Part shown: one piece after another, positions 38,951 through 45,366 of the stretch
Layout of the letters: each line of letters begins with the position of its first letter
How positions within the stretch are numbered: the stretch's first letter is position 1
Origin: Pedosphaera parvula Ellin514
Lineage (GTDB): Bacteria; Verrucomicrobiota; Verrucomicrobiia; Limisphaerales; Pedosphaeraceae
Length of the DNA: 64,000 nt
Direction of reading: 5' to 3'
Assembly: GCF_000172555.1 (NCBI RefSeq)
Contig: NZ_ABOX02000004.1
Coordinates: 124,001 to 188,000 of the forward strand
Notes under the pieces: generated by a model
What the model was told of the DNA's origin: nothing
What the model saw: only the letters and a program-made list of their open reading frames with translations
The model's database searches: none
Position numbers and translations under genes: made by a program

Positions 38951-39676
38951 TCATTTCTGCGCGGCGGCAATCTCGGTTTTCACTGCGTCTAAATCTTTCT
39001 TGAACGAATCGCTTTCCTTCAATTGCCTGGTGATGGCCTGCGCCAGAACGCGTCCTGCGTAAATGTCGCTCGGATAATGCCGCGCGATCTGGACGCGATG
39101 CCAGCCCATCAGTCGCGCGTGGTCCAGAATGGCATCACGCTGATCTGGCAGCAAATCCGCCAACACAAGCGCGAGCACCATGGATTCCGTCGAGTGGCCA
39201 CTCGGATATCCAAACGATTTTTCCAGCTTGCCGTTGGCGAGGGAGGGATCGGTGGTGAAGGGCCGTGGACGACGGAAATAATCCTTGCCCGCGTCAGTCA
39301 CGAGCGCGGCGTCGATCTGGACTTTTTCAAAGAAGGCGGCCGTTCTGGGCAGGTTGGTTGCGGTGAAAAAAGTGCCGATGGTGGGGGTGAAATTGAAGAC
39401 GGAAAATTTCTTTTCCGAATACGCAACGGCGATGTCATTGCTGCTGGCGCAGTGATAGATGGTTCTTACTTCAGCCAGTTCGGCAGCTTGTTCCGAAGAG
39501 TCAGACGGTGACGGTGGTGGAAGCAGTGTGGCGGCATCGGGTTTGCCAGCAGTCAGGTAATGCAACTCTTTGTCGGCGGCGTGCAGCGGAGTGACCGCGA
39601 CGGTTAGGGAGAACAAAATGGCAGAGAGCCAAGCTGTGCTGTGCAAACGTGAGAATGGCTTGAGGGAGGTGTTCAT
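38951..39676 (-). CDS. Exported PAP2-family acid phosphatase
   Basis: Signal peptide (ends TPLHA). The class A acid phosphatase signature is in order: K-D-Y-F-R-R-P-R-P, YPSGHSTESM and WHRVQIARHYPSDIYAGR, giving Lys, Arg, His, Arg, His and Asp at the vanadium-haloperoxidase-type site. There are no membrane helices beyond the signal, so it is a periplasmic phosphomonoesterase, not a lipid phosphatase. Confidence 0.9.
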   Translation of the reverse strand: MNTSLKPFSRLHSTAWLSAILFSLTVAVTPLHAADKELHYLTAGKPDAATLLPPPSPSDSSEQAAELAEVRTIYHCASSNDIAVAYSEKKFSVFNFTPTIGTFFTATNLPRTAAFFEKVQIDAALVTDAGKDYFRRPRPFTTDPSLANGKLEKSFGYPSGHSTESMVLALVLADLLPDQRDAILDHARLMGWHRVQIARHYPSDIYAGRVLAQAITRQLKESDSFKKDLDAVKTEIAAAQK

Positions 39677-39698
39677 CGGGATTTTTCGTGGTTATCTA

Positions 39699-39944
39699 TT
39701 AAAAAGCAATGCTGCCGTCCTGGGTCCAATTGATATCTGAATTACTGGGATCGCTGGGTTTGCCGAAAATGTTTGTAACCACATACTCGTATTTGAACCA
39801 ACCGGCGCGACCATCACCAAATTGTCCAAGCAATAGCTTCGGTTGGCTTTTTCCTTTGCCCTGGCCAGAGCCGGCAAAGATGGCCATAACCGCCAAGAGT
39901 TCGATCAACGTGGATCCAAAATATGTTTGTCGCTTCAGTTTCAT
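39699..39944 (-). pseudogene. Decayed prepilin-like gene
   Basis: The N-terminal remnant LKRQTYFGSTLIELLAVMAIFAG is a class III prepilin helix. The next expected stretch (PALARAKEKANRSYCLDNL) is present only in another frame, and the middle of about 200 residues is missing. The first frame resumes with FGDGRAGWFKYEYVVTN and ends DINWTQDGSIAF, which parallels the end of the intact protein at 44473-45366 ([17 protein letters not shown]...DLNWDCHGD). So the gene has at least two frameshifts and a large internal deletion. Confidence 0.75.
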
Positions 39945-40028
39945 CGGACCCAATAGAGTTCCAAGGCCCGGGCAAAAATGCGCGTGGACCACAGCTCCTG
40001 CCGGTTGAGCACAGATTCCCATCCCCCG

Positions 40029-40068
40029 GTTACGGCTTGATGTCATTCATGTGACAATTTGACGACAT
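40029..40068. promoter_or_regulatory. Third, weaker copy of the 11-bp-phased element
   Basis: GTTACGG (40029), ATGTCA (40040), GTGACAA (40051) and ACGACAT (40062) keep the exact 11-bp steps of the two strong copies at 44225 and 44364. It lies upstream of the prepilin-like pseudogene in the same orientation as the copy before the secreted-protein gene. The rest of the 320-bp gap between the pseudogene and the secreted-protein stop shows nothing recognisable. Confidence 0.6.
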
Positions 40069-40264: not shown

Positions 40265-43200
40265 TTACGGCTGCCGCAGCATATAAAACTGCAGTGCGTT
40301 CGTAGCCGCAATGGAATTGGTGAATCTATAAATTCCTGCCGGGCCCTCGACCGCTGTACCGATGACCGGCCAGGTTGCAATCGGTGCACTGATATCATTT
40401 GTGGCGATTATCGAGTAATTCAAGCCAGCCGCATTGGTGAAGGTAAATGCCAGCTTGCCACCTCCCAAATTAACTCCTCCCAAAATGGATTGGATGGGTG
40501 CCGGAATGTTAAACACCGGTGAACTCGTCACGGAAGCAAGCCCGCTAGAGGTGAAGACGATGTTGGCACCAATGACAGCGTTGGTGCTGAAAGCCGTCAG
40601 ACCGCTAAAGGTGGCCGTGCCGGAAACCGCCGCTTTGGTCACGGCGCCGCCCAATGTCCAGGTGCTTTGCACGGGCGCAGCCGTGATGCTGGCGGTGCTG
40701 GTGGTCACGTTGCCGAATTGGTCTTGAACCACGATTACGGGTTGGGTGGCCAGTGCGCCGCCATCGGCAACCGGGCCAGTTGGTTGAGTTGTGATAGCAA
40801 GTTTCGCTGCCGTACCGGCACTAATCGTCTGCACGATTGAATTGGTGCTAAAACCGGTCGCGCTGATCACGATCGTTTTTGATCCTGCAGTTTGCAGAAG
40901 CGCGGACTGGGATGGATCAAAAACAATTTTGCCAACTTGATTGATGCTATAGGCGGCAGCCGGCAGAGCAGAACCATTTACCGTGATACCGGTGATGGCC
41001 GAACGCCAGGCGGCTACATCCGGAGTGTTCGTGACACTGAACGGACTTGAAACAGTGGCTGATGTTGCGGCGCTGAGGAACGGAGGCGGGGTGAGTTCGC
41101 TGGTGTAAGCGATTTGCTGTGGCACAAAGGTGATACCTTTCAAATAAGTTCCACCGGTTGCAGTGTAGAGCACATTGCTGGAGACGATGGAGATCGATTG
41201 ATTGTAGCCGGCCGCGTCCGTCACTCTGACGAGACTGTTGCTGGTGGAAGAGCCGGTCGTATAATAAAGATAAACACCACCGTTGCCGTTAGTGGCGGCA
41301 AACAAACTGTCACCGCCCGTCGCGTTGACAAAAGTGCCATTGGCGGCCCATGCACCACTCACCAAGGAATATTTTTTGATAATGCCCTGGGTTGCGCTCA
41401 CTCCGTCAAGTATATACAGTGTGTCGTAAGTGCTGCCGTCGGAGGAAATCATATAAAAATCCGAAGCAACTGGATCCGTAGTCAGATTATTGGCTTTGGT
41501 CACGTCGTATAAGCCGGTGTCGACATCAAGGCCAAGGGCATAAACCACCGGTATCACTTGACCGTTTGCTGTCTTTTGCGTCTCGACATAGGGAACTCCG
41601 CCGAAGGTCCTGATGACCACGTTATTAAAAGGGTTCAAATTGGGATTGGCGAGTGTTCCGCTGGCAGCACTGCCGTAGTATAATCCGCCTTTGTCATCCG
41701 CGAACCAATTAATATTGTCCAAGGTGGCACAAGAGCGAGCCTGGCTGCCACCCAACGAGGTTGAGATATAATTTAAACCGATCACCAACTGGTTCGTGTA
41801 ATTCAGACCCGCCGCCGCCCGGTTGAGGTTGAGCGTTTCATCGGGTGTTGCCGCACTGTTGTCGGCGAAAGCACCGAAGCACAATAATGTGCCGTCATCA
41901 CTCAGTGACATTTTGCCGCAACTGCCGGCGGAACTTAGGCGGAGCGCATTCGTTCCCGTGGCACTTATGGGGACAATGTTCAGAGGCGCAGCTTGCTTGG
42001 CAGAGGGCTTAAGTTCGATGACACTGAAAGTCGTATTATTTGCCATCGTATCAATTTGAAGGACAGCCAGATTTCCCGGAGTAAATGGAACCGGTGCCGC
42101 GCCGATGTTGAAGGAGGCTGAATTCGTAGTTGTCACTGGTGCATATCCAGTCACGGCAAATGTGAGAAAGTTGGATACTGATCCCAAGTTGCTGGTGGAG
42201 GTGGCAGTCAGGTTTGTGAAGACCACAAGGCCGTCGACGGCCGGTTGCACCGTGTCGCCACCCAGAACCCAACTGGAATTGTTGGCGGTGGCAGTGATAG
42301 TGACACTGGGGTACGGATTCGTGGTTCCGTTCCCGTATTGATCCGCGATGATCAGGCTCGGATTGACGGTCAAGGTGCCACCACTGGCGGAAGGAGCGGC
42401 GGGTTGAGATGTGATGGCCAGTTTTGTCGCCATACCAGCGGCGAGCGGTTGGACATACTTGGCGGTGCCATAACCAGCAGCGATGATGACAATGTTTTTG
42501 TCGCCGCTCGATTGCAGCAAGGTGGATTTCGACGGCGTAAAGACCATTTGGCCTGCCGTGTTCGTCGTATATGCCGTATTCGTCAAAACCAGGCCATTCA
42601 CATAAACAGCGGCAATTTTGCTGCGCCAAACCGCATCATCAGGAAAGGTATTGGTGAAGGGTGCATCTACCGAGGCTCGGGGATCATAGGCTATCGTTGG
42701 CGCCGGTGTTCCCGAAGTGCCACCGACCACCACGTTGTCATAACGCCAGTTGCCGGAAGAGTTGTTATAAGAACCGCCATTGAAGGCCACACAATCCGAT
42801 CCCGTGGCGGCATTGACAATTCTGAATGAAAAGTTGGGATTGTTTTCCACGCCAGGAACGCCAGTAAAATCCACGACGAAGTTGTTGTAAAAGTTCTGCC
42901 CTAGAGTCTGATAGATGTAGGTTCCCGTCACAGTATTTTCACTGCCACCCAGCGCCACGGCGGCGTTCGTCTGAACAAATGACGGTTTGGCCCCATAGAA
43001 GAGAGTCGAGGCCACATTCGTAGTGGCCCAGGCGTCCGTGGTGTAAAGCACACACATCTTCGCCTCGCCAGCGCTCGTAAAATAAAGATCGAAAGTACAC
43101 ACGATATTGGAATAACCAGCTGTGCTGACATCAAACTGGGCTCCTTGAGTACCGATGGGCGCGGCCGTATTCCAACCGTTGTTGCCGGGATTGCCACGCA

Positions 43201-44156
43201 CGCGCCAGGCATTTGGTCCGGCGTTGCCAGAGGAACTGCCTCCCGGTGGAAGTCACATCGGGACCATTGGTGCTGCCAGTTGTGGTCGTGCCTGAATAAG
43301 TGTAGTTGTTATCAAAACCAATGGAGGTAGCCAAACCGGAACCGATTATAGGTAGTGGATGATAAATGATCGTTGCGGCGCTCGGATAATTGTCAAACCC
43401 CCAATTCACGATCGTATCGATTGAGGTGCCCTGAATCACAACGTTGTCGAATGTCCAACTGCCTGAAGTATTGTTATACAAGGCTCCGGTGGTATTTACG
43501 CAATTCGCGCCCGTGGAGGCGTTGACCACGCGAATCGCAAAATTGGCATTGTTATCCACTCCCGAGATGCCGCTCAAATCAACTGTGATCTGATTGTTCC
43601 AGCCGCTCGCCAATTTGACATAGGAACCGACAACCGTAGCTTGACCAGGGTCAGTGTTATTAGTGATAACGCCCAAGGTTCCAACCGAGGTGATCAGGGC
43701 ATTATTCCAGGTGGAACCGTCAGTGGTATATTGCACCTGAAGATTTGCTTCGGCGTCAGCAGTGGCATAGACATCAAACGAAACATTGATTCTGTAAAAG
43801 CCAAACGTGCTGCCCGCAAATAGCGCGCCTTGCGTGCCGATGGGAGCATTCGTTGACCAGCCATTCCCGCCAAAAGGAGCCGAACCGCTCGCACGAACCC
43901 GCCAGCTTTTCGCGCCACCAGTCGAGCTTCCCGCCAGGGACTGGATGTCGGGATTACTTATGTTGTTGGTATTGTTAAAAAGATTACCCATACCCAGCGC
44001 ACTGGCCGAGCCCAGACCGCTTGATGGTGCCGGGATGGCATTGGCCCCGGCGGCCAGATTGTCGAAATTCCACACGGTAAGGAAAGTTGAAGCTTTTGTC
44101 CCCGCTAGCGAAGAGAGGAGCAATGCCGCCATGCATGCAATGTTTTTTATTTTCAT
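40265..44156 (-). CDS. Giant secreted repeat protein, split by a frameshift
   Basis: A signal peptide (KIKNIACMAALLLSSLAG) is followed by two tandem domains of about 230 residues (each with WRVR, NGW.T.APIGTQGA, ...NF..RVVNA.TG..C, Y.N.SG.W..DNVV.GTS). Next are two Ig-like DUF1533-type modules (W...I..I.VNG...), Big-like segments starting ATKLAI/AAKLAI, a propeller-like middle, and a verrucomicrobial C-terminal module ending FYMLRQP. The frame breaks at an extra C in 43242-43244; removing it joins the halves into about 1296 residues. It is probably exported to the cell surface. Shares mirrored regulatory elements with the prepilin-like gene. Confidence 0.8.
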
Positions 44157-44224
44157 TAGTTTAGAGTTTTTGCTCTGAGTAAATTCAGTCGTACCCCTGC
44201 GAGCAGACAATTATCCATGATTCC

Positions 44225-44264
44225 GTTACAAAGAAATGTCAGTTGCTTGACAATCTGGTGACAT
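44225..44264 (-). promoter_or_regulatory. 11-bp-phased element upstream of the secreted-protein gene
   Basis: Plus-strand subsites: GTTACAA (44225), ATGTCA (44236), TTGACAA (44247) and GTGACAT (44258), each one helical turn apart; the second is an inverted half-site. The near edge is 68 bp upstream of the secreted-protein ATG. It is the mirror image of the element at 44364. Confidence 0.75.
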
Positions 44265-44363
44265 TATTTTTTCGCGAATACTGCCGATTCCCGTCAGCTA
44301 ATCGGCGTTGATAAACTCCCGCCCCATTTCATTTACGACCGGCCGAAGAGCAATCCACCCACG

Positions 44364-44403
44364 TTGTCACCATGTTGTAACAATTCCGCCATTTGCTTGT
44401 AAC
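44364..44403 (+). promoter_or_regulatory. 11-bp-phased element upstream of the prepilin-like gene
   Basis: Plus-strand subsites TTGTCAC (44364), TTGTAAC (44375), CGCCAT (44387, weak) and TTGTAAC (44397). In reverse complement this reads GTTACAA-N4-ATGGCG-N5-GTTACAA-N4-GTGACAA, the same order and spacing as the copy at 44225. The near edge is 69 bp upstream of the prepilin ATG. The remaining divergent region 44157-44472 shows no gene. Confidence 0.75.
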
Positions 44404-44472
44404 AGGAGTGGCTGAGATTATCCCTAACTTGGAAGTCCGATGCTCTGTCGATTAAAGGTTTGGAAGCAAAAC

Positions 44473-45366
44473 ATGAATTTACAACACAAGAAGTCCCTCG
44501 GGTTCACACTGATCGAACTGCTGGTGGTCATTGCCATCATCGCCATTCTGGCGGGAATGCTTTTGCCCGCGCTTGCCAAAGCCAAGGCCAAGGCCCAGCG
44601 GGCGTCCTGCTTGAGCAACGCTAAACAGTGGGGGTTGGCCGACACGATGTACGTAGATGATAACAACAGCACTTTTCCTTACCCGCGATATCAGGGATAC
44701 GCCTCGAGTGTGGACCAGGATAACCCGGTCTGGCTGTCTATCGCCACTTATCACAATCAAAATCAAGGCGACGATGTTTGGTTCAATGCCCTGCCTTCGT
44801 ATGTTGCCAACAAACCTTTGTACACCTGGGCATACGATCCAACCGCGTTCTACGGTTCCAAGTCCATCTTCACGTGTCCGACCGCTTACTCGCAGGGCAT
44901 TGCCTCAGCGGATGCAGTTGCAGCTTCAGGCTCAAAAGACATGATTCCCGGTGTCCGTCCCCTCTTCAATTACGGCATGAATTCAAAATCAATCGCCAAC
45001 GAAAATCTCAATGCAAGTGTCGCTACCCTCAATGCCAGCATGGTCGCTCACCCTTCCGCCTTCGTGCTTTTTTCGGACGGCCGCGACCGTTCTGCCGAGA
45101 ATCCCTACTATGGAGCGGCAGCTAATCAAATGCTGCTCGCCACCCCGCACTGTTACACCACCCGCTTTTCCTCCCGTCATGAACGGGGCGGCAATATAAC
45201 GTTTAGCGACGGGCATGCTGGTTTTTATAAGTACGACTATGTGGTGTCTGATGGTACGGCTATAGCTCCCTCAGGTCCCACGGCCGGCCAAGTCGTCGCT
45301 GCTGGTAAAGATCCCGGTCGCCAGGACCTCAACTGGGATTGCCATGGCGACCCAGTTATTAATTGA
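44473..45366 (+). CDS. Prepilin-like (type II secretion/pseudopilin-type) protein
   Basis: A short basic leader ending KKSLG is followed directly by [18 protein letters not shown], the class III prepilin cleavage site and helix with Glu at +5. A long verrucomicrobial-type C-terminal domain follows ([43 protein letters not shown]), which includes the H...DGH-type ending. ATG at 44473 is chosen over the upstream ATG. Such proteins are numerous in Verrucomicrobia and Planctomycetes. It probably assembles into or is exported by a pseudopilus system; no secretion genes are adjacent. Confidence 0.9.

Follow-up and report, generated by a model that had tools for sequence, protein, structure and literature searches.

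Probable PHO boxes at two back-to-back promoters of a prepilin-like gene and a giant exported-protein gene in Pedosphaera parvula

The PHO box is defined as a series of 7-bp direct repeats with 4-bp spacers (PMC4415409), and in PhoB-dependent promoters its last unit occupies the −35 position (PMC3348028). In the pstS promoter of E. coli, four such units (CTGTCAT, CTGTCAT, CTTACAT and CTGTCAC) form a layout that is present in 5,369 of 5,426 E. coli genomes and that lies 5' of the annotated pstS gene in the one record inspected. Regulators of the OmpR/PhoB family recognize direct repeats that recur every 11 bp with 4-bp spacers (PMC4832192), and in the PhoP operators of B. subtilis, Streptomyces and M. 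tuberculosis direct repeats with an 11-bp period are occupied by tandem dimers of a regulator of this family (PMC4415409, PMC4832192). Other systems connect phosphate starvation with protein export by type II secretion. Hxc/Psp of Pseudomonas fluorescens and ElpS of Caulobacter include phosphate-starvation-induced exported proteins encoded beside secretion or pseudopilin-type genes, and psp has a Pho box and requires Hxc (PMC2225411, PMC2996285). A literature search covering open-licence papers returned no description of PHO boxes at a verrucomicrobial locus of the kind analyzed here.

The window, by which we mean the whole stretch of 64,000 nucleotides of P. parvula Ellin514 DNA that was analyzed, contains an intergenic region (44157-44472) between a giant exported-protein gene and a divergent prepilin-like gene. 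Two facing repeat elements in this region had been attributed in an earlier note to a single protein that would bind once per helical turn and regulate the two genes jointly. Based on their sequence, we consider it very probable that these elements are double PHO boxes, through which PhoB would act at low phosphate on two back-to-back promoters. They share with the E. coli pstS and phoA boxes the 7-bp direct repeats, the 4-bp spacers and a last unit at −35 followed by a −10 hexamer, and with pstS also the four units and the divergent third unit. They differ from the E. coli boxes in their half-site, which is WTGTMAC rather than CTGTCAT, and in the genes they serve, which encode a prepilin-like protein and an undescribed protein that is exported. 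PhoP operators have the same period but other half-site sequences, and M. tuberculosis PhoP belongs to a different subfamily. In contrast to Hxc and ElpS, the locus has a lone prepilin-like gene, no whole secretion operon and another exported protein, and its link to secretion is putative. The operator and its mechanism would be of a known kind; what appears to be new is the Pho-regulon membership of a secreted-protein, pilin and phosphatase locus.

Two facing repeat arrays

On the side of the giant exported-protein gene, the minus strand from 44264 to 44225 reads ATGTCAC-CAGA-TTGTCAA-GCAA-CTGACAT-TTCT-TTGTAAC; on the plus strand, 44225-44264 is GTTACAAAGAA ATGTCAGTTGC TTGACAATCTG GTGACAT. On the prepilin side, the plus strand from 44364 to 44403 reads TTGTCAC-CATG-TTGTAAC-AATT-CCGCCAT-TTGC-TTGTAAC, and the minus strand of 44364-44403 is GTTACAAGCAA ATGGCGGAATT GTTACAACATG GTGACAA. 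Both arrays are conserved in orthologs. The bases, 11-bp steps and distances described in the earlier note are all present, with four units per side and near edges 68 and 69 bp from the ATG codons at 44156 (minus strand) and 44473 (plus strand). The note had found real repeats and missed their direction: read toward each gene, they are TGTCA/TGTAA PHO half-sites on the strand opposite to the one it used. Its composite pattern, allowing up to two mismatches, has no other occurrence in the 7.4-Mb genome (control, 0).

Each array consists of four 7-nt direct repeats with 4-nt spacing (11-nt period), which exceeds the two units that are the minimum for a PHO box, and the half-sites resemble CTGTCAY. 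Against the E. coli consensus (CTGTCAY in four copies), which is independent of the window, the elements match at 22 and 21 of 28 positions, which puts them first and joint second, the tie being with 40029-40068, among about 128,000 window positions. A second test used a phosphate-promoter matrix trained only on the promoters of porin, pstS, phoB and regulator genes. The two elements take ranks 1 and 2 in the window and score 45.5 and 20.9, compared with 4.9 for the best of 3000 dinucleotide shuffles of the 316-bp intergenic region, with the qualification that the training set is partly circular because the first search pattern came from the window pair. This circularity spares the E. coli consensus test and the identities of the genes downstream of the matches.

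PHO boxes of phosphate genes and related loci

A relaxed pattern locates five places in the P. parvula genome: the window pair, two sites on contig C29 and one weak site. The C29 sites lie directly 5' of the porin-pstSCAB-phoU operon and of a receiver-only response regulator that precedes phoB-phoR, and phoB itself is preceded on this contig by a three-unit box (CTGTAAC-N4-CTGTAAC-N4-TTGTCAC). The motif is shared with the organism's own pst and phoB promoters. A second pattern with at most two mismatches gives six sites in the same genome, comprising the window pair, a third window site, two C29 sites and one site before another prepilin-like gene. With at most three mismatches this pattern is near chance (7 matches versus 5 in the control), and only the lower-mismatch sites backed by neighboring genes were used. 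A three-mismatch match at C27:52974, which no clear gene follows, was discounted as probably due to chance. The receiver-only regulator (L010:11904-12308 on C29) lies between phoU and phoB with its own PHO box, and it may act as a phosphate sink or modulate PhoR-PhoB.

As the earlier note had stated, the window holds no regulator for the elements; phoB-phoR is located on C29. The most likely regulator, as judged from sequence, is this PhoB encoded elsewhere in the genome (L010:12643-13341), which has receiver and winged-helix domains. Its DNA-binding domain is conserved and shares 45% identity with the corresponding domain of E. coli PhoB; the E. coli sequence used was checked against 1QQI/1GXP. 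Both the recognition-helix segment (RTVD.H.RRLR) and the wing (TVRG.GYRF), which hold the DNA contacts in the 1GXP structure, are kept. PhoB and PhoR of P. parvula score best or near best to PhoB- and PhoR-type models, at values below the curated cut-offs.

The scan of related genomes proposed in the earlier note, which asked whether prepilin-like and exported genes lie behind matches, was positive. When applied to 40 genomes, the first pattern matched 16 times outside P. parvula and the reversed control not at all; the genes behind them are mostly those for the pst porin, PstS and PhoB, together with three propeller/prepilin-type loci. A strict pattern applied to 196 genomes of the order yielded 79 matches, with no reversed-control match among those listed. 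Of 30 of these 79 that were inspected by tblastn, 23 sites precede pst porin or PstS genes (20 porin, 3 PstS), and one lies before a propeller gene that is accompanied by a divergent prepilin gene and a PAP2 gene.

We also collected 13 orthologous loci from Limisphaerales (Verrucomicrobia subdivision 3) using only the conserved core of the giant protein and ignoring the promoter. The alignment for this collection scan comprised the closer six sequences, as distant propellers were too diverse, and five loci (L096, L097, L098, L100 and L102) that are the same records as G132, G097, G042, G110 and G166 were counted once. With the matrix, a box was found before the prepilin or the giant gene in 11 of the 13 loci and both boxes in 8, while L096 and L097 had no box above threshold. 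A PAP2 gene lies beyond the prepilin gene in 10 of the 13. Over the 216 kb formed by these loci and the window there are 24 matches at a score of at least 5, compared with a mean of 0.25 (maximum 4) for column-permuted matrices and none for the reversed matrix.

Promoter geometry and rival readings

On the giant side, a −10 hexamer (GATAAT, 44210-44215, minus strand) begins 9 nt past the last PHO unit. The same offset of exactly 9 nt recurs in the orthologs, where the hexamer is most often GATAAT, with A2 in 10 of 11 loci, T6 in 10 of 11 and a mean of 4.36 matches to TATAAT. On the prepilin side, a weak hexamer (GAGATT, 44414-44419, plus strand) starts 10 nt past the last unit, and a weaker NANNNT is found at exactly this offset in 9 of 9 loci. 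Since the −10 offset is fixed, the last unit (TTGTAAC) occupies the −35 position, and the offsets of 9 and 10 nt fit the spacing of about 10 nt expected of a PHO box. The mirror arrangement and near-equal distances in the window could suggest one symmetric operator, in which a regulator bound at both arrays would bring these together, for example by looping, so that a single complex would set the two genes. We regard this as very improbable, since the arrays lie 99 bp apart in the window, whereas gaps of 18, 37 or more than 1,300 bp separate them in orthologs, some loci carry a single array, and each array has its own −10 at a fixed distance. Distances from box to start codon vary as well, being mostly 65-105 bp on the giant side and about 14-80 bp on the prepilin side depending on the start codon chosen. 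Each box is therefore set relative to its own −10 and not to the other box. The significance that the earlier note had assigned to the mirror geometry and to the matched 68- and 69-bp distances does not survive this comparison: we reject the geometry as meaningful because the array spacing is not conserved, the near-equality looks like a coincidence, and the mirror look is that of two back-to-back promoters.

Single half-sites are short and degenerate, and the resemblance to PHO boxes might be accidental. Such an accident has a negligible probability: none of the 3000 intergenic shuffles reached 5 bits, the boxes are common to pst promoters, and conservation in orthologs already refutes it. 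We regard the elements as real and non-random. It is also conceivable, though improbable, that another OmpR/PhoB-family response regulator with a similar preference for 11-bp direct repeats serves prepilin and exported genes in a response other than to phosphate. In its favor, direct repeats spaced by 4 bp are bound by members of this family (PMC4832192), HisKA matches number 76 in the genome, which points to many two-component systems, and several box matches precede prepilin-like genes. Yet the same box and −10 geometry is found before porin-pst, pstS and phoB in P. parvula and its relatives, and a phosphatase is encoded in the same cluster. We favor PHO boxes, on the basis of the 7-bp repeats with 4-bp spacers, the E. 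coli pstS layout, the top ranks in the window, the presence of the same box before the organism's own pst and phoB genes and before those of relatives, its conservation in orthologous loci, the fixed −10 spacing, the clustered phosphatase and the similarity of the PhoB DNA-binding domain to that of E. coli. The earlier proposal of one protein acting on both genes was right in substance, this protein most likely being PhoB.

Genes behind the boxes and a proposed mechanism

The giant exported-protein gene (40265-44156, minus strand) consists in the window of two overlapping open reading frames in different frames (43131-44156 and 40265-43201). In five relatives it is an intact single frame of 1218-1775 codons, and the frame change at 43131-43260 could reflect either an indel in the assembly or a genuine break. 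When the conserved propeller-like core (41114-42085) was searched against PDB sequences, no relative of note was retrieved, and Pfam and NCBIfam models match at most a different part of the protein. The AlphaFold2 model of the core is all-beta and of modest confidence (pLDDT 67, pTM 0.75). Its Foldseek matches are assorted and weak (TM about 0.3-0.4), many being beta-propellers, including the siderophore-binding XusB, and at this level we claim no enzymatic function for the core. A binding or hydrolytic role of the giant protein in phosphorus acquisition is plausible. Four more distant loci (L040, L041, L042 and L110) encode a smaller exported propeller-like protein, with a start like FTPGxLAVLRxGDG, together with a PHO box, and three of the four have a divergent prepilin-like gene; these smaller proteins imply that what is essential to the system is probably the propeller-like core. 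In a relative (L057:5448-6353, G022), a gene next to phoR-phoB encodes an exported single-domain protein that has a PEP-CTERM-like tail and is related to the giant protein's N-terminal repeat.

The prepilin-like gene (44473-45366, plus strand) has profile matches to N_methyl and part of DUF1559. Only its N-terminal methylation segment matches pseudopilin models, and no full-length equivalog match to type II secretion pseudopilins (GspG/H) was obtained, all scores lying far below cut-off. A prepilin peptidase and secretins are encoded elsewhere in the genome. A PHO-box-like site with two mismatches (C23:19335-19373) lies just 5' of another prepilin-like gene, which is followed by an exported protein, and suggests that the Pho regulon contains more than one prepilin.

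A third PHO box, picked by both the matrix and the E. coli consensus, is located at 40029-40068 on the minus strand (ATGTCGT-N4-TTGTCAC-N4-ATGACAT-N4-CCGTAAC), with GAATCT, a NANNNT hexamer, 10 nt on. It is followed on this strand by a truncated prepilin-like gene (39699-39944), whose start and tail are kept and whose middle is missing, and by an exported, acid-phosphatase-like member of the PAP2 superfamily (38951-39676; PF01569, E 1.5e-14) with a K-x5-RP motif (KDYFRRPRP). The phosphatase resembles class A PhoC/PhoN in its PAP2 domain, its export signal and its motifs PSGH and R-x5-H-x3-D, but it does not match the exact class A signature GSYPSGHT and reaches only 62.6 bits against the cut-off of 430 for PhoC, the nearest NCBIfam model. 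In most relatives the phosphatase sits behind the prepilin gene, and 38951-40068 looks like a decayed second copy of this prepilin-phosphatase unit.

We propose that PhoR senses phosphate limitation and phosphorylates PhoB, as is established for the family and would apply here. Judging from the architecture, two head-to-tail PhoB dimers would fill the four 11-bp units of each array. PhoB would then recruit RNA polymerase at the fixed −10 of each of the two back-to-back promoters, as the conserved spacing suggests, presumably in activation rather than repression. The third PHO box would serve the prepilin remnant and the PAP2 acid phosphatase, and the prepilin-like protein, the giant exported protein and the phosphatase would be induced together. 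Roles of the propeller and the prepilin in phosphate scavenging are speculative, and that the prepilin exports or displays the giant protein and the phosphatase is a guess. We tentatively raise the possibility, which we hold to be doubtful, of an undescribed locus for phosphate scavenging in Limisphaerales-type Verrucomicrobiota, where PhoB would induce together a dedicated prepilin-like protein, a large beta-propeller protein that is exported, and an acid phosphatase, with the prepilin aiding export or cell-surface display of the other two.

Collectively, an unexplained promoter motif becomes a clear prediction, namely phosphate control by PhoB. The analysis provides a PHO-box model that can be used in a bacterial group on whose Pho regulon the literature searched contains almost nothing. 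Moreover, phosphate starvation would be the physiological condition for conserved giant exported and prepilin-like proteins that had none.
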